Positions 31,496 through 46,155 of a DNA stretch of 46,155 nt are shown in pieces. Under the pieces are notes generated by a model. It did not search any database, was not told where the DNA came from, and was given only the letters and a program-made list of their open reading frames with translations. The translations under genes were made by a program, and so were the position numbers. Origin of the DNA: Terriglobia bacterium (GTDB lineage: Bacteria > Acidobacteriota > Terriglobia > Acidiferrales > UBA7541); NCBI GenBank assembly GCA_023512135.1, contig JAIMAG010000019.1, positions 1 through 46,155 of the forward strand. Reading direction: 5' to 3'. Positions within the stretch are counted from its first letter, which is position 1. Each line of letters begins with the position of its first letter.

Positions 31496-34400
31496 TTATG
31501 CCGCGGTTCCGGCAGCCAGCTTCTTCACTTCCGTGTGCCAGCGCCACAGGAAGTAGATAGCCGGATAGACCAGCAGCTCCAGCGCAAACGACGTGAAGAT
31601 GCCGCCGATCATGGGCGCGGCGATGCGCTTCATGACGTCGGCGCCGGTGCCGGTGGACCACATAATCGGCAGCAGACCCATGAACATCACCGCGACGGTC
31701 ATCACTTTCGGACGCAGCCGTTTCACCGCGCCGTATTCGATGGCTTCGTGCAGATCTTCGCGCGTGCGCATCCGGCCTTTCTGCTTGCGCTCGTTGTAGG
31801 CCAGGTCCAGGTAGAGCAGCATGAAGATGCCCGTTTCGGCGTCCACGCCGAGCAGCGCAATCAGACCCACCCAGACGGCGATGCTCATGTTGTAGTCGAG
31901 CGCGTAGAGCAGCCAGATGGCGCCGATGGCCGAGAAGGGAACAGCAAGCAGCACAATCAGCGTTTTCGCGATCGAGCCTGTGTTCAGGTAGAGCAGCACG
32001 AAGATGATGAACAGCGTGATGGGAACCAGCACCCACAGCCGTTCCCGAACCCGCTGCAGGTATTCGTATTGTCCGCTCCAGAGCAACTGGTAGCCGGCCG
32101 GGAGTGCGAGCCGGCGGGCGACTTCCTGACGGGCCTGTTCCACGTAGCTTCCCAGGTCGCGCCCTTCCACGTCCACATAGACGAAGCCGGCGAGGAAGCC
32201 TTCTTCGTTCTTGATCATGGGTGCGCCGGTGGTCAGGCGGATCCGGGCCAGTTGTGTGATGGGCACCTGTGCCCCGGACGGAGTGGGCACCAGCACGCGG
32301 GCGAGGTCCGCCAGCGAATCGCGCAGGTCACGGACGTAGCGCACCTGCACCGGATAGCGTTCGCGGCCCTCGATGGTGGTGGTGACCGTTTTCCCGCCGA
32401 CGGCGGCTTCCAGGATGTCGTTCACTTCGCCTACGGAAAGCCCATAGCGTGCGGCCTGTTCGCGGTTCACCTCGAAGTCGAGATAGTAGCCACCGGTGAC
32501 GCGTTCAAAAAATGCGCTGCGGGTACCGGGAATGTCCTGCAGGATGCGCTCGAGCTGCAGGCCCAGGGTCTCGATCGTGTTCAGATCGGTGCCCAGGATC
32601 TTGATGCCCACTGGCGTGCGGATGCCGGTGGTGACCATGTCGATGCGCGTGCGGATGGGAAACAGCCAAGCATTCGCGTACGAAGGCAGCCGCACCGCTT
32701 CGTCCAGTTGCTGGATCAGCTCCTCCCAGGTGAGCGGGCGCTCCTCCGGCCAGATGCGGGTCAGCAGCCGGCGGAGCCAATCCGGTGCCCAGCGGGAATA
32801 CCAGCGCTCGACCCGCACCGTGCGCCACTGACTCTGCGGCTTGAGCAGGATGTTTGTCTCCACCATGCTGAGCGGAGCCGGATCGGTCGCGGTTTCCGCG
32901 CGGCCCGCTTTTCCAAACACGGTTTCCACCTCCGGAAACTGCCGGATCAGCTTGTTCTGAATTTGCAGATACTGGGTGGCTTCGGTGATGCTGATCCCCG
33001 GCAGCGTGATGGGCATGTAGAGCAACGAACCTTCATTGAGCGGTGGCATGAACTCGGAGCCGAGTCGCAAATAGGCCGGCACGGTGACCGCCATCGCCAG
33101 CAGAGCCAGAGCAATCACCAGCCACTTGTAGTTCAGCACAAACCGTACGACCGGGTGGTAGAGGCGCATCAAGGGTCGGCTGATCGGGTGTTGTTCTTCG
33201 CTGCGGATTTTTCCCACGAAAATTGCGTTCGCCAGTGCGGCCAGCCAGCGCGGGCGGAACCCGAACGCCTGCGTGTGAAACAGCAGCAGTCGCAGCGCTG
33301 GATCCAGCGTAATCGCCAGCACTGCCGCCACGGCCATGGCGGAATTCTTGGTAAACGCCAGCGGCTTGAACAGTCGGCCTTCCTGATACTGCAGTGCGAA
33401 AACCGGCAGGAAGGAGACAGCAATCACCAGCAGAGCAAAAAAGCTCGGGCCGCCAACTTCTTTCACGGCCTCGATGATCACGCGCTGACCGCTACCCGGA
33501 CGCCCTTCCGCTTCCCAGTACTCGAGCTTTTTGTGAGTTTGTTCGACGACGACGATCGCGGCGTCCACCATGGCACCGATCGCGATGGCGATGCCGCCGA
33601 GCGACATGATGTTCGAGCTTACGCCCATCAGTTTCATCGGGAGAAACGACAGCAGCACAGCAATCGGGATGGTCACGATGGGGATCAGGGCGCTGGGGAT
33701 GTGCCAGAGAAAGATCAGAATGACCAGGCTGACGATCAGCAGCTCTTCGAGGAGCGTGTTCTTCAGCGTGGCGATGGCGCGGTCGATCAGTGCGGAGCGG
33801 TCGTAGGTCGTTACGACTTCGATCCCCGGGGGCAGGGCGGCACGGTTTTCCTCCAGCTTCTGCCGGACGCGATGGATCACGCTGCGGACGTCTTCACCGT
33901 GGCGGACCACGACGATGCCGCCCACGACTTCGCCTTCGCCGTTCAGCTCAGCCACCCCGCGGCGCATTTCCGGCCCCAGCTCCACCCGGGCGATATCGCG
34001 CACATAGATCGGGGTGCCGTTGTCGTCGGTGCCCACGGCCAGATTGCGGATGTCGTCGAGGGAAGCGATGTAGCCGCGGCCGCGCACCAGGTACTCCTTG
34101 CCGGTGAACTCCACCACGCGTCCGCCGACTTCGTTGTTGCTGTTGCGGATGACCTCGAGGACCGCGTTCAGGGGCAGGCGGTAGGCCAGCAGCCGGTTCG
34201 GGTCAACGAGCACTTGGTACTGCTTGACGAAGCCGCCCACCGGCGCCACTTCGGCCACCCCGGGCACGCCTTCGAGCCAGTACCGCAGGTACCAGTCGTT
34301 GAACGTGCGCAGTTCCGCTAGATTGTGACGGCCACTGCGGTCCACCAGCGCGTACTGAAATGCCCAGCCGACGCCGGTGGCATCCGGCCCTAGCTGGGGC

Positions 34401-34777
34401 ACCACGCCTTCCGGGAGCTGGCCAGCCATTGCGCTCACGTACTCGAGCACGCGACTGCGCGCCCAGTACAGATCGGTGCCTTCTTCGAAAATCACGTACA
34501 CGTAGGAAACACCGTAGTCGCTGATGCCGCGCACCACGGTGACCTTCGGCGCCGCCAGCATGGCGGTCACCAGCGGGTAGGTAATCTGGTCTTCCACCAG
34601 ATTCGGGCTGCGGCCGGGCCATTCCGTGTAGAGAATGACCTGCGGATCGGAGAGGTCGGGAATGGCATCCACCGGCGTGGTCCGTAGCGCCCACCCGCCC
34701 AGCACGCACAACGCCCCAACCAGAATCAGGACGAACCCGCGGTGCGTGGCGCAGTATTCGATGATGGCGTTAATCAC
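31496..34777 (-). CDS. cusA: CusA-like Cu(I)/Ag(I) efflux RND pump
   Basis: About 1093 residues of a heavy-metal-efflux RND transporter with twelve membrane spans and two large periplasmic loops. All three methionines that form the CusA metal site appear in their conserved contexts: LLYMPIT, PLSMVET and RIDMVTTG, which argues for copper/silver over the Zn/Co/Cd CzcA branch. The proton-relay span reads GGIAIAIGAMVDAAIVVVE with its Asp. The N-terminus (INAIIEYCATHRGFVLI) and ETATDPAPL are typical. GTG at 34777 is chosen: GGAGG stands five bases upstream and it overlaps the cusB stop by eight bases, so translation is coupled. It forms a tripartite pump with the cusB and cusC products. Confidence 0.94.
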   Translation of the reverse strand: MINAIIEYCATHRGFVLILVGALCVLGGWALRTTPVDAIPDLSDPQVILYTEWPGRSPNLVEDQITYPLVTAMLAAPKVTVVRGISDYGVSYVYVIFEEGTDLYWARSRVLEYVSAMAGQLPEGVVPQLGPDATGVGWAFQYALVDRSGRHNLAELRTFNDWYLRYWLEGVPGVAEVAPVGGFVKQYQVLVDPNRLLAYRLPLNAVLEVIRNSNNEVGGRVVEFTGKEYLVRGRGYIASLDDIRNLAVGTDDNGTPIYVRDIARVELGPEMRRGVAELNGEGEVVGGIVVVRHGEDVRSVIHRVRQKLEENRAALPPGIEVVTTYDRSALIDRAIATLKNTLLEELLIVSLVILIFLWHIPSALIPIVTIPIAVLLSFLPMKLMGVSSNIMSLGGIAIAIGAMVDAAIVVVEQTHKKLEYWEAEGRPGSGQRVIIEAVKEVGGPSFFALLVIAVSFLPVFALQYQEGRLFKPLAFTKNSAMAVAAVLAITLDPALRLLLFHTQAFGFRPRWLAALANAIFVGKIRSEEQHPISRPLMRLYHPVVRFVLNYKWLVIALALLAMAVTVPAYLRLGSEFMPPLNEGSLLYMPITLPGISITEATQYLQIQNKLIRQFPEVETVFGKAGRAETATDPAPLSMVETNILLKPQSQWRTVRVERWYSRWAPDWLRRLLTRIWPEERPLTWEELIQQLDEAVRLPSYANAWLFPIRTRIDMVTTGIRTPVGIKILGTDLNTIETLGLQLERILQDIPGTRSAFFERVTGGYYLDFEVNREQAARYGLSVGEVNDILEAAVGGKTVTTTIEGRERYPVQVRYVRDLRDSLADLARVLVPTPSGAQVPITQLARIRLTTGAPMIKNEEGFLAGFVYVDVEGRDLGSYVEQARQEVARRLALPAGYQLLWSGQYEYLQRVRERLWVLVPITLFIIFVLLYLNTGSIAKTLIVLLAVPFSAIGAIWLLYALDYNMSIAVWVGLIALLGVDAETGIFMLLYLDLAYNERKQKGRMRTREDLHEAIEYGAVKRLRPKVMTVAVMFMGLLPIMWSTGTGADVMKRIAAPMIGGIFTSFALELLVYPAIYFLWRWHTEVKKLAAGTAA

Positions 34778-36137
34778 GGCCGCCTCCGTGCTGCGCGTGA
34801 CCGGCATGCACCGCACCGGGAGATTCGGGTGCACCCAGATGCGCCAGTGCGCCTTTCAGCCGGCTTTCGGAATCGAGCAGGAAATTGGCTGCGGTTGCCA
34901 CGCGTTCGCCGGGTTGCAGGCCGCTCTCGATGGCGGCGAAGCCTGCGGCGCGTGCGCGGACGGTCACGCGGCGCGGTTCGATGTAGCCGTTCCCTCGGTC
35001 TACGAACACGTACTGCAGGGTGCCGGTGTCGAGCACGGCATCTTCGGGTACGACGAGCTGGGTGCCCAACGAAACGTGCAACACCGCGTGGACGAACATG
35101 TCCGGTCGCAGCGTGAGATCCGGATTCGGGAACTCCATCCGCGCTTGCAGGGTTCGCGTTTTCGGATCCAGGTAGGGATAAAGGAACGTGATTTTGCCGC
35201 GCAGCGTGCGGGGCTGGCCGGCATAGGGAAATTCGATCGTCACGGGTTGACCTTCGCGCAGAAAGGGCAGTTCGTATTCATAGAATTCCGCCAGCACCCA
35301 GACCGTGGAAAGATCCACGATCGTGTACAGATCCATTTCCGGGTTCACGTAGCGGCCGTGGTGGTAGGCCATGCGGTCGGTCACAATGCCCGACACTGGC
35401 GAATAGATCGTCAGGGTGCGGCGAACTTCGCCGGTTTCTTCCAGCCGGCGGATGTCTTCTTCGCTCACATCCCACAGCCGCAGCCGTTCCCGGGCCGCGT
35501 GGACTAGCGAGCGGGCCCCGTTGCGAATTTCCGCGTAGGGTGCATCGTTCAACTGCTCCTGACCGCGAAGCGCCACCAGGTATTCGCGCTGGGTCGCGAC
35601 GAGCTCGGGACTGTAGATGGTGAACAGCGGCTCCCCTTTGCGCACCGGACGCCCGACAAAATCCACGTAGACGTGCTCGATGTAGCCGGTGACCTTCGTG
35701 TGGATGTGCGTGACCTTGGATTCGTCGAACGCCACCTTGCCCACGGTGCGGATTTCCTTGTGCAACGTGCGGCGCTCGGCAGCCACGTAGCGGACGCCGA
35801 TCAGTTGTTGCCGCTGAGGGGCGATGAAAATGGACGTCGGCGTAGTGGTTCCTTCGGTCGGCGCACCGCTGCCGGTCGCGGGGTGTGCACCGGGGTGGGC
35901 TTCCTTGCGCACGAGCTGCATGCTGCAGATCGGGCAGTTGCCGGGCCGGTCCGAGCGGTATTCGGGATGCATCGGGCAGTACCACACCTCGCTCGCCGAC
36001 GCCTCAGTGGACACTTCCTCGGGGGTGTGCCCGTGCCTTTCAGGCACAGTGAACCAGTCGAGAATCTCGCGGTGGTAGATGGCTCCCACAACGATCAGCA
36101 CGACGACGAGCACAATGGCAATCCTTTGCTTTCTCAT
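34770..36137 (-). CDS. cusB: CusB-like periplasmic adaptor with heavy-metal-binding domain
   Basis: About 455 residues of a membrane-fusion protein linking the RND pump to the outer-membrane channel. An N-terminal membrane anchor (RIAIVLVVVLIVVGAIY) is followed by a small Cys/Met metal-binding domain, WYCPMHPEYRSDRPGNCPIC with CSM (PF19335-type), then the lipoyl/barrel-sandwich and beta-barrel domains (VRYVAAERRTLHKEIRTVG, IHTKVTGYIEHVYVDFVG, GEPLFTIYSPELVATQREYL). The C-terminus is His-rich (VHAGHAQHGGG). The ATG at 36137 is preceded by GAGGA, and further upstream the frame overlaps the cusC 3' end without function. Gap to cusC is 7 bases. It probably receives metal and passes it to CusA, as in E. 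coli. Confidence 0.93.
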   Translation of the reverse strand: MRKQRIAIVLVVVLIVVGAIYHREILDWFTVPERHGHTPEEVSTEASASEVWYCPMHPEYRSDRPGNCPICSMQLVRKEAHPGAHPATGSGAPTEGTTTPTSIFIAPQRQQLIGVRYVAAERRTLHKEIRTVGKVAFDESKVTHIHTKVTGYIEHVYVDFVGRPVRKGEPLFTIYSPELVATQREYLVALRGQEQLNDAPYAEIRNGARSLVHAARERLRLWDVSEEDIRRLEETGEVRRTLTIYSPVSGIVTDRMAYHHGRYVNPEMDLYTIVDLSTVWVLAEFYEYELPFLREGQPVTIEFPYAGQPRTLRGKITFLYPYLDPKTRTLQARMEFPNPDLTLRPDMFVHAVLHVSLGTQLVVPEDAVLDTGTLQYVFVDRGNGYIEPRRVTVRARAAGFAAIESGLQPGERVATAANFLLDSESRLKGALAHLGAPESPGAVHAGHAQHGGGRD

Positions 36138-36144
36138 GGCGTCC

Positions 36145-37413
36145 TCACGGCAACAATTCCATCGCGGTGATTTCTTCCAGCCGCGCCAGCGCGGTCTGGT
36201 ACTTGGCCAGTTCGTTGTAGTATTCGATTTCGTAGTCAAGTACCGTGATGAAATTTGTGATCACGCTCAGGAAATCGAGCCGGCCGACCTGATAGGCGGC
36301 CAGCGCCGACTCCAGCGCCAGAGTGGACTGGGGCACGATGCCTTTCCGGTAGAGAGCCAGCAGTTGCTCGGAAGCGCGCGCCGTCAGATAGTGCTGCTGG
36401 ACCGCATAGAACAGCTCCGTGCGAATCGCTTCGCGCTGCTGCCGCGCCGCGGCCAGCGATGCCGCCGCTTCGTTCACGGCTTCGCGCTGCTTGCTTTTGT
36501 AGAAGACCGGAATGCGGATGCCGAACGCGATACCGTGCATGTCCGGCATCACGGGCCGTTGCTGGTACATGTAACGGATTTCGAAGTCCGGGTAGTACTC
36601 GCGTCGCGCCAGGAGCACCGCGTACTGCTCCTGTTCGATCCGTTCTTCTTGCTGGCGGATTTCCGGATTTTCCGCCACAGCGCGGTCGAGCAGCTCTTCG
36701 AGGGAGTAGAACAGCTCAGTTTTTTCCACCGGCGCCAGTGGGCCGAGCGGCGCATCCGGTGGCAGCAGTCGCAGGGTGTTCAGTCGCGCCACCAGCGTCT
36801 GCCGCTGCTGGCGGAGCACCGTCAGCCGCTGCAGAAAGCGGGAAACCTCCACCTGGGCGCGCAGCACATCCTGCTGCAAACCTTCTCCGACGCGATACTT
36901 TTCTTCCGCGATGCGCGCCAGCTTTTCGAGCAGAACCTTGTTCTGCTCGCTGATCGCGATGGCTCGCTCGGTGCCCCACAGCGCAAAATAGGCTTCCGCC
37001 ACTTCCGCGCGCAGCCGGCGTCGGAGCCCGTCGAGCGCCCACCGCTCGGCCTCTGCTTCTTGCGAAGCCAGCTGCCCCCGCAGCCGCAGCTTGCCCGGGT
37101 AGGGAATCTCTTCCCGGGCCTCGAAGAAGCGGAAACTCGACGGGTCTCCTCGCTGCACCCGGAAGGGCGCGGGGTCGCCCATCCAGCCGACCGCAACCAT
37201 CGGATCGGGCAGCGTGCGCGCCTGGGAAACCCGCGCCCGTTTTGCCTGTATGCTTTGCTCAGCGGCACGTAAGCTGGGGTGAACGCGTTCGACTTCCGCC
37301 TGCAACGCGCGGAGCGTAACCAGTTCGGCTTCGCCGGCTCCGGCACGTTCTTGAGCCGGTATCGCCGTGCCGGTGGCCAGGGCCAACAGCAGCACCAAGG
37401 ATACGGATTTCAT
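36145..37413 (-). CDS. cusC: CusC-like outer-membrane efflux channel (TolC family)
   Basis: A 422-residue outer-membrane factor. A cleavable signal peptide (MKSVSLVLLLALATGTAIPA) leads into two tandem OEP repeats. The first holds NPxL-like HPSLRAAEQSIQAKRARVSQARTLPDP with FFEAREEIPYPGKLRLRGQ; the second holds ENPEIRQQEERIEQEQYAVLLARREYYPDF. EYYPDF and ARREYYP are typical of metal-efflux TolC relatives. There is no lipid-attachment Cys after the signal, unlike E. coli CusC. It lies between the small Cys/His protein (90 bases upstream) and cusB (7 bases downstream) in one operon. Confidence 0.92.
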   Translation of the reverse strand: MKSVSLVLLLALATGTAIPAQERAGAGEAELVTLRALQAEVERVHPSLRAAEQSIQAKRARVSQARTLPDPMVAVGWMGDPAPFRVQRGDPSSFRFFEAREEIPYPGKLRLRGQLASQEAEAERWALDGLRRRLRAEVAEAYFALWGTERAIAISEQNKVLLEKLARIAEEKYRVGEGLQQDVLRAQVEVSRFLQRLTVLRQQRQTLVARLNTLRLLPPDAPLGPLAPVEKTELFYSLEELLDRAVAENPEIRQQEERIEQEQYAVLLARREYYPDFEIRYMYQQRPVMPDMHGIAFGIRIPVFYKSKQREAVNEAAASLAAARQQREAIRTELFYAVQQHYLTARASEQLLALYRKGIVPQSTLALESALAAYQVGRLDFLSVITNFITVLDYEIEYYNELAKYQTALARLEEITAMELLP

Positions 37414-37503
37414 AAGTCTCCTCTCTCTGCACTCACACGAAAATGGATTGGGCGCGCACCACCTCGTCGGCGCGCAGCGGGTGTGTGCTTCCGAAGAGAG
37501 GAG

Positions 37504-37881
37504 CTAGATCAGAAATACACAGAGGTGGGCCTGGAAATCGGAAGGCAAGACGCGAACCTGTGCAAGGGCCACCGGAGCCTGCGTGTGGCTCGCGGCAAGG
37601 CTCTCGCTGGCGGGGATGACCAGCGGAGCGGCGGCTGCCGTCTGCGGAGTGCTCGGCTCCTTGAACAGCGGTTGCGGCGCTGCTCGCAGCGCACAGCAGT
37701 CGTGTCCGGCGGGCGTCTCGAGCGTGGAAGTCGGCGCGGTCGCCGGCACAGTGTGGCATTCTGGCTGTGGCTGGCAGTCAGCCAGCAGATTAGCCACCAG
37801 CGCACAGGCCGAAACGGGCAGCGGCCCCGCTGCCAGCAGAGTCATCATGGCCGCCAGTGCTACCGCGCGCAGCATCGGCAT
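37504..37881 (-). CDS. Small secreted Cys/His protein heading the copper-efflux operon
   Basis: A 125-residue protein. Residues 1-26 are a signal peptide (MPMLRAVALAAMMTLLAAGP, then LPVSAC). The mature part has Cys/His clusters at DCQPQPECH and GHDCC, about 15-20 residues apart, then a low-complexity Ala/Pro tail and another Cys near the C-terminus. The spacing suits a small periplasmic metal-binding or metal-sensing role like CusF, but the sequence is not CusF-like, and the role is inferred only from position and cysteines. It starts 19 bases downstream of a TATACT box and has AAGGG before the ATG, so it is the first gene of the operon; the next gene, cusC, follows after 90 bases. Confidence 0.65.
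   Translation of the reverse strand: MPMLRAVALAAMMTLLAAGPLPVSACALVANLLADCQPQPECHTVPATAPTSTLETPAGHDCCALRAAPQPLFKEPSTPQTAAAAPLVIPASESLAASHTQAPVALAQVRVLPSDFQAHLCVFLI

Positions 37882-41626: not shown

Positions 41627-46155
<4,529 letters not shown>

Follow-up and report, generated by a model that had tools for sequence, protein, structure and literature searches.

The cus Operon and Its First Gene

The window, i.e., the whole stretch of 46,155 nucleotides analysed here (contig JAIMAG010000019.1 of the Terriglobia bacterium assembly GCA_023512135.1), carries on its minus strand a cus operon headed by a small gene whose product is a putative copper-sensing exported arrest peptide, referred to below as the leader. 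The leader ORF (37504..37881, minus strand; 125 aa, ATG start, TAG stop at 37504-37506) is present in the list of open reading frames and aligns with homologues from other genomes; a sequence-only reading had proposed this ORF without a strand. The same reading had placed it directly ahead of CusC, CusB and CusA genes, and the domains encoded downstream bear this out. On the same strand, 90 nt past the leader stop, begins cusC (36145..37413; OEP, PF02321, E 1.5e-44), followed by the cusB open frame (34770..36239; HlyD_D23, PF16576, E 3.6e-78, plus HMBD), whose true start probably lies inside the frame, and the cusA open frame (31496..34834; ACR_tran, TIGR00914 above cut-off). The best solved match of the window CusA is E. 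coli CusA, and the methionines of LLYMP, MVET and RIDM, which we take to form the metal path of CusA, align with those of 3k07 (E. coli CusA).

From its N-terminus, the leader (all coordinates on the minus strand) consists of an export-signal-like region recognised by eye (residues 1-25, 37807..37881), ending in ..GPLPVSA before C26; a first Cys cluster, C36-QPQPE-C42-H43 (37753..37776); a second Cys pair, C62-C63, the putative metal site (37693..37698); a spacer (residues 64-112, 37546..37692); and the tail PSDFQAHLCVFLI (37507..37545), a putative arrest motif that ends at the stop codon.

The divergent neighbours of the operon encode a PhoB-like regulator, a PhoR/PnpS-like kinase and PhoU, not CusRS; the PhoB, PhoR and PnpS models score slightly under their cut-offs and the PhoU model above it. 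Given these neighbours, no copper two-component pair stands next to the operon on its divergent side. Ten other ORFs of the window, nine of them beyond cusA, encode peptidase, HD or outer-membrane domains or have no Pfam match. A promoter scan returned nothing at the scan threshold, and an Rfam scan gave a single sub-threshold match only. Elsewhere, a second PhoU-like gene (L021, 7469-8068, genome G003), 39% identical to the window PhoU, lies directly upstream of the leader of that genome. Close to the end of the contig, a TonB-dependent receptor frame (window 45000-45451) seems to lose its homology; the opposite strand at 45044-45397 presumably resembles the end of a Ser/Thr kinase, and a frameshift or a chimeric assembly is possible there.

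Distribution of the Leaders

A single-sequence search of 61 genomes, the own genome included, in which weak partial matches were left aside and the eight extending as far as residue 125 taken further, found full-length homologues (reaching the C-terminus) in eight other genomes. The sequence-only reading had suggested looking for homologues upstream of other cus operons, and in each of these 8 of 60 other genomes the leader heads CusC-CusB-CusA genes. The close relatives carrying it (seven loci) are Acidobacteria/Terriglobia MAGs, Candidatus Acidiferrum among them. An HMM built from nine sequences had a match in at least 23 of 89 genomes of the host family, own included; the weakest match (G070) contains in-frame stops and was not counted, leaving at least 22 genomes with the gene. 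In a phylum-wide sample of 396 genomes, at least nine had a match, own included; those outside the host family with a full tail are L053/L074 and L054/L075, and the remaining ones are partial or contain stops. These counts are minima, as part of the first-look candidates was scored in many genomes (at most 48 each in the host family and 10 each in the phylum). L076 was dropped as spurious.

CusC was found at E up to 1e-30 in 39 of the 61 genomes, in 40 matches, the second match of G029 being fragmentary and left outside the upstream comparison; one upstream region is cut by a contig end. Directly upstream of cusC, a small Cys-rich ORF with an export-signal-like start was seen by eye in 32 of the 38 readable cases, and no leader was visible in the other six (G037, G044, G045, G053, G057, G060). 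The leaders fall into three types: type I, as in the window, with the tail LCxFLI and variants (14 genomes); type II, with SPPELYTLHSSLLI or a looser LLI ending (8 genomes); and type III, with SPP..S(I/V)LRI and variants (10 genomes). To pick out types II and III, upstream ORFs having two or more Cys were sorted by eye; L077, the same gene as L052, was set aside as type III. A type III HMM had matches in at least 25 of 151 genomes of the class, partly ahead of genes other than cusC, and a type II search across the phylum in at least one of 149 genomes, part of the candidates being scored in many genomes of these searches as well (at most 29 each for type III, 30 each for type II). The same plan stands before a CusC-like gene in a distant phylum member (L131), where the leader ends in APPYLLNAVFRI.

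The link to metal efflux that had been expected of homologues holds for type I, since cusC is the next gene in 23 of the 25 leaders examined; it holds less fully beyond type I, where some leaders precede other, partly metal-related genes. The two type I exceptions are L064, which heads a multicopper oxidase gene (oriented, after 3087) from which a very short ORF separates it, and L118 (= L070), where the next gene (504-1772) encodes a Met/His-rich secreted-looking protein without a Pfam match, possibly a new copper-operon protein. Type III leaders L052, L146, L149, L158 and L159 precede a gene for an outer-membrane-like protein with HGPVFG near the mature N-terminus (no Pfam match in that of L158, the one scanned), and in L158 and L159 a small HMA-domain protein follows; these genes may form a further metal operon that is controlled in the same way. 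Related leaders (L153, L154, L155) precede another uncharacterised secreted protein family (APETAPPLFPGG), with no Pfam match in the one member scanned.

Conserved Residues and Their Spacing

The leaders were compared in a table of 42, which excludes L064 because its next gene is not cusC and includes L118, which starts at a contig end, though its next gene is not cusC either. The homologues aligned to residues 1-25 share basic residues, a hydrophobic stretch and PLSAC-like ends, and the secreted nature claimed earlier stands on the hydrophobic N-terminal stretch of the window protein, judged by eye. We did not adopt a lipoprotein: most type I signals end in L/V-x-A-C, but L026 (LPC) and L027 (SDC) do not fit, and the Cys-less signals of L068, L071 and L072 contradict it as well.

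The cysteines, on whose retention in relatives the sequence-only reading had staked its proposal, are not lost: among the 24 aligned type I leaders, C36, C62 and C63 are present in all and C42 in 23, and the second pair takes the form CC or C-x-C throughout. The Cys/His clusters described earlier are present in the window protein as D35-CQPQPEC-H43 and G59-HD-CC63; no other leader among these 24 has H43 or H60. In type I, the columns of the second Cys pair have a mean conservation of 1.00, those of the last six residues 0.85 and those of the spacer 0.32; the spacer keeps its length, not its sequence.

The distance from the second Cys pair to the C-terminal residue is 61-67 residues in all 42 leaders of the three types. 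When 25 further leaders were measured from their last Cys ahead of the tail, the distance was 63-67 in 23, 70 in L131 and 72 in L151. Ile ends 40 of the 42 leaders and V or F the other two; of the 25 further ones, 22 end in Ile and three in Val. In type I, Phe, Leu and Ile persist although different leaders encode them by different codons (TTT/TTC; CTG, CTA, CTT, CTC, TTA, TTG; ATC/ATT/ATA), and TAA, TAG and TGA all serve as stops. As the codons vary and all three stops are used, selection acts on the peptide up to its last residue. The Cys of the tail is replaced by His or Ser in 3 of the 24 type I leaders, and it was therefore rejected as a metal ligand.

Predicted Pairing between the Leader Stop and the cusC Ribosome-Binding Site

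In the window, the first bases past the leader stop form an anti-Shine-Dalgarno (anti-SD) sequence, CTCCTCTCTT (37494..37503), predicted to form a 10-bp stem with AGAGAGAGGAG, the Shine-Dalgarno (SD) region of cusC (37418..37428); an inner hairpin is predicted in the interval between them (37452..37478; all on the minus strand). The predicted stem seals the SD, whose unpaired probability is 0.00, and the 107-nt region has an MFE of -39.2 kcal/mol (z -2.55), a value reached by 4 of 200 shuffles. If the 12 nt that follow the stop are held single-stranded, as a stalled ribosome would hold them, the unpaired probability of the SD rises from 0.00 to 0.26, and none of eight other masked windows frees it likewise.

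The specificity of this pairing was assessed by permutation in 41 of the 42 leader-cusC pairs (L102 has no chosen cusC start), with cusC starts chosen by eye. The mean energy of a leader's anti-SD with its own SD is -11.95 kcal/mol vs about -9.4 kcal/mol when permuted, with 0 of 10,000 permutations as good; type I (24 pairs) and type III (10 pairs) are each significant, and the seven type II pairs show no anti-SD signal (own -8.94, permuted -8.90, p 0.46). A further 23 pairs gave -12.91 vs -9.94 permuted (0 of 10,000); apart from L052, already met as L077, none of them had contributed to the hypothesis, many are close relatives of one another, and L131 comes from another search. They are what remained of 24 loci, chosen without L141 (near-identical to L140) and L157, after L152 had given no start and was dropped; their cusC starts were set by rule, and those of L131, L144, L147, L154 and L156 look doubtful. 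As controls, we used 46 junctions of mechanically called ORFs of at least 200 aa in the same DNA, some of which may not be genes, because usable CusB-CusA (1) and CusC-CusB (3) gaps were too few; they gave -7.19 vs -7.79 (p 0.94).

The best complement of the SD falls between -4 and +8 nt relative to the stop in 18 of the 41 pairs (type I 12/24, type II 1/7, type III 5/10) and in 10 of the further 23. Masking the 12 nt past the stop beats every other masked window in 12/24 type I, 7/10 type III and 1/7 type II pairs, and the mean unpaired probability of the SD changes from 0.22 to 0.35 in type I, from 0.18 to 0.39 in type III and from 0.28 to 0.25 in type II. The gain is modest on average, exceeding 0.2 in 7/24 type I and 3/10 type III pairs; L025, L028, L062, L068 and L074 are poorly pairing type I loci, and masking lowers the access of the SD or leaves it as it was at several loci, e.g., L025, L063, L075 and L028.

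Known Copper-Responsive Leaders

Leaders of this kind are already known, among them the copper-responsive leader ORFs CutF and CruR and the SecM-type arrest peptides. According to PMC9973294 (Ozturk et al. 2023), CutF of R. capsulatus is likewise a small exported Cys protein encoded by the first gene of a copper operon, with a C-terminal element near the stop and a stem-loop shielding the SD of the next gene; it precedes CutO, much as L064 precedes a multicopper oxidase here. According to the same text, OEP genes are the commonest neighbours of CutF-like genes, and copper lengthens the stall-like state by which the cutO stem is opened. The precedent is itself incomplete, since the isolated C-terminal motif of CutF gave no stall in a SecM-type assay (PMC9973294).

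In PMC9973294, CutF-like genes are defined by a product below 150 aa, a gene on the same strand within 1000 nt, a signal peptide and PP within the last 15 residues. The window leader has 125 aa, with cusC 90 nt downstream on the same strand, and a hydrophobic N-terminal stretch by eye; an SD-masking stem-loop is predicted in the window, and the pairing is locus-specific in types I and III, not II. Its tail has one Pro only in the last 15 residues and falls outside the PP rule. As 37 of the 42 leaders, the window not among them, do carry PP there, some of them may already sit in the list of PMC9973294.

The differences are in family, metal site and tail. CutF is placed in DUF2946 (PMC9973294), whereas no leader scanned here matches DUF2946 significantly: PF11162 gave no match at E up to 10 in nine type I and six type II leaders, and one of eight type III leaders matched at E 9.3, i.e., at chance level, so that membership was rejected. 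In the own genome, the single PF11162 match is below threshold, interrupted by in-frame stops and located on a different contig, and DUF2946 is above cut-off in 3 of the 61 genomes, at places other than the leaders. The Cys pair of CutF is CxxxC, that of the leaders CC or C-x-C; its C-terminal element is PP alone, in contrast to L-C-x-F-L-I or S(I/V)LRI running up to the stop; and 45 aa separate its two motifs (PMC9973294), compared with the 61-67 residues here.

CruR of B. pertussis (Bp2923, DUF2946) shares with the leaders, according to PMC9426467, the position of a copper-linked leader ORF as the first gene of its operon and a metal motif of Cys whose distance to a C-terminal element is fixed. 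It differs in its RAPP motif, found in none of the 42 leaders, and in its CxxC; the window has CC and CxxxxxC, and of the 42 leaders one has C..C within the stretch searched. CruR is described as acting through Rho-dependent termination, with a dispensable export signal, and as switching a TonB-dependent transporter operon off with copper (PMC9426467); a 2025 study shows arrest of CruR in vitro at RAPP (PMC12992588). SecM-secA, as outlined in PMC9973294, shares the exported nascent chain, C-terminal arrest and unmasking of an SD, but it senses secretion rather than metal and has another arrest motif. Judged by their sequences, the members described here differ from the known leaders in family, metal motif and tail, and in the open-licence PubMed Central literature we found no printed description of these tails or of Acidobacteriota members.

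A Proposed Mechanism and Its Alternatives

We consider it likely that the leader is an exported peptide that controls the translation of cusCBA in cis and senses copper before it has left the ribosome. This reading is built on features that can be read from the DNA: the export-like start, the second Cys pair, its distance to the end, the tail abutting the stop and the locus-specific anti-SD. The stalling and the copper response we infer. With the codon of the last Ile in the P-site and the stop in the A-site, the Cys pair would be just through SecYEG and in the periplasm: the tunnel is taken as about 30 residues and the membrane crossing as about 17 (PMC9973294), which would put a site 61-67 residues from the P-site just outside the membrane. 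When copper is absent, the chain would be pulled out and released, the anti-SD would pair with the SD, and cusC would be off. Binding of copper (or silver) to the Cys pair would impede pulling or release, and the tail would hold the ribosome at the stop; its footprint over the anti-SD would free the cusC SD, and the pump would be made. Once released, the peptide would serve no other essential purpose and would probably be degraded. That copper should act as the on signal is suggested by the efflux pump encoded downstream and by the precedent of CutF (PMC9973294).

Among the alternatives, a route like that of CruR fares best, while remaining unlikely: the stall would prevent Rho-dependent termination in the leader-cusC gap, and the anti-SD stem would be secondary. 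CruR itself works in this way (PMC9426467). The gaps, of 61-247 nt, and the type II leaders, with no anti-SD signal, are consistent with this route, and so is a GTGT-containing element (CGTGTGTCTC-like) that starts +28 to +37 past the leader stop in 22 of 41 gaps, compared with a mean of 1.8 and a maximum of 7 in 500 single-base shuffles. This element, seen, e.g., in the gaps of L063, L062 and L110, is often inside or adjoining the inner hairpin; it is also found ahead of genes other than cusC, and the window gap has no GTGT at +28 to +37. On the other hand, locus-specific pairing of SD and anti-SD in types I and III is not needed for control by Rho. If a Rho mechanism like that of CruR (PMC9426467) applies, it would be above all in the type II leaders.

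CusF is a small periplasmic copper protein encoded in cus operons. The sequence-only reading had stated that the window protein is not CusF, and this is confirmed: no CusF Pfam match was found even at E 10, a hmmscan at E up to 10 for CusF (PF11604, accession as in PMC9973294) yielding a chance match to another family, and the conserved leader columns hold no Met/His/Trp site. Like E. coli CusF, the leader might nevertheless work on its own in the periplasm, as a metallochaperone or a metal buffer passing Cu/Ag on to CusCBA, being secreted by appearance, provided with Cys pairs and encoded by the first gene of the operon. We regard this as improbable, since there is no significant Pfam match among the leaders scanned (nine type I, six type II, eight type III), no significant NCBIfam match among six, and no conserved sequence in the spacer, and since a metallochaperone leaves unexplained the strong selection at the residues next to the stop, the selection on spacing to the stop, and the anti-SD right past it. 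Plain translational coupling, in which translation of any upstream ORF would open the stem and the encoded protein would be incidental, is very unlikely: the anti-SD adjoins the stop, so that even ordinary termination would disturb the stem, but coupling gives no reason for the conserved Cys pair, the fixed distance and the tail.

The arrest-peptide reading accommodates these features, and of the two functions that the sequence-only reading had left side by side, metallochaperone or sensor, the sensor is favoured and the periplasmic metallochaperone is not the best reading. The grounds are the conservation of the tail at the stop, the strongest apart from that of the Cys positions, a spacer constrained in length only and the pairing of the RNA past the stop with the cusC SD, which, taken from the sequences, are properties of a cis-acting nascent-chain regulator that the sequence-only reading had missed. 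At about even chances, we further propose that the Acidobacteriota possess a family of metal-sensing arrest peptides of their own, which would stall at termination with a near-invariant Ile beside the stop (FLI/LLI/LRI tails), measure 61-67 residues so that the Cys pair is read on emerging at the periplasmic face of SecYEG, stand apart from RAPP and DUF2946 leaders, unmask the SD of the pump directly and be accompanied by a second conserved intergenic element, GTGT at about +31 to +35.

Concluding Remarks

If the proposal is true, a large and poorly studied soil lineage would control copper efflux through a protein that is read during its own synthesis, at a locus where no metal-responsive regulator is recognised beside the pump in the window. 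Copper-responsive leader peptides would then extend beyond DUF2946, and a distinct C-terminal motif acting at the stop codon would be added to those known. As the distance between the metal site and the ribosome is kept and the sequence between them is free, these leaders would offer a clean test of the feedback that metal binding outside the membrane exerts on the ribosome. The proposal would also caution against an annotation of such genes as metallochaperones.
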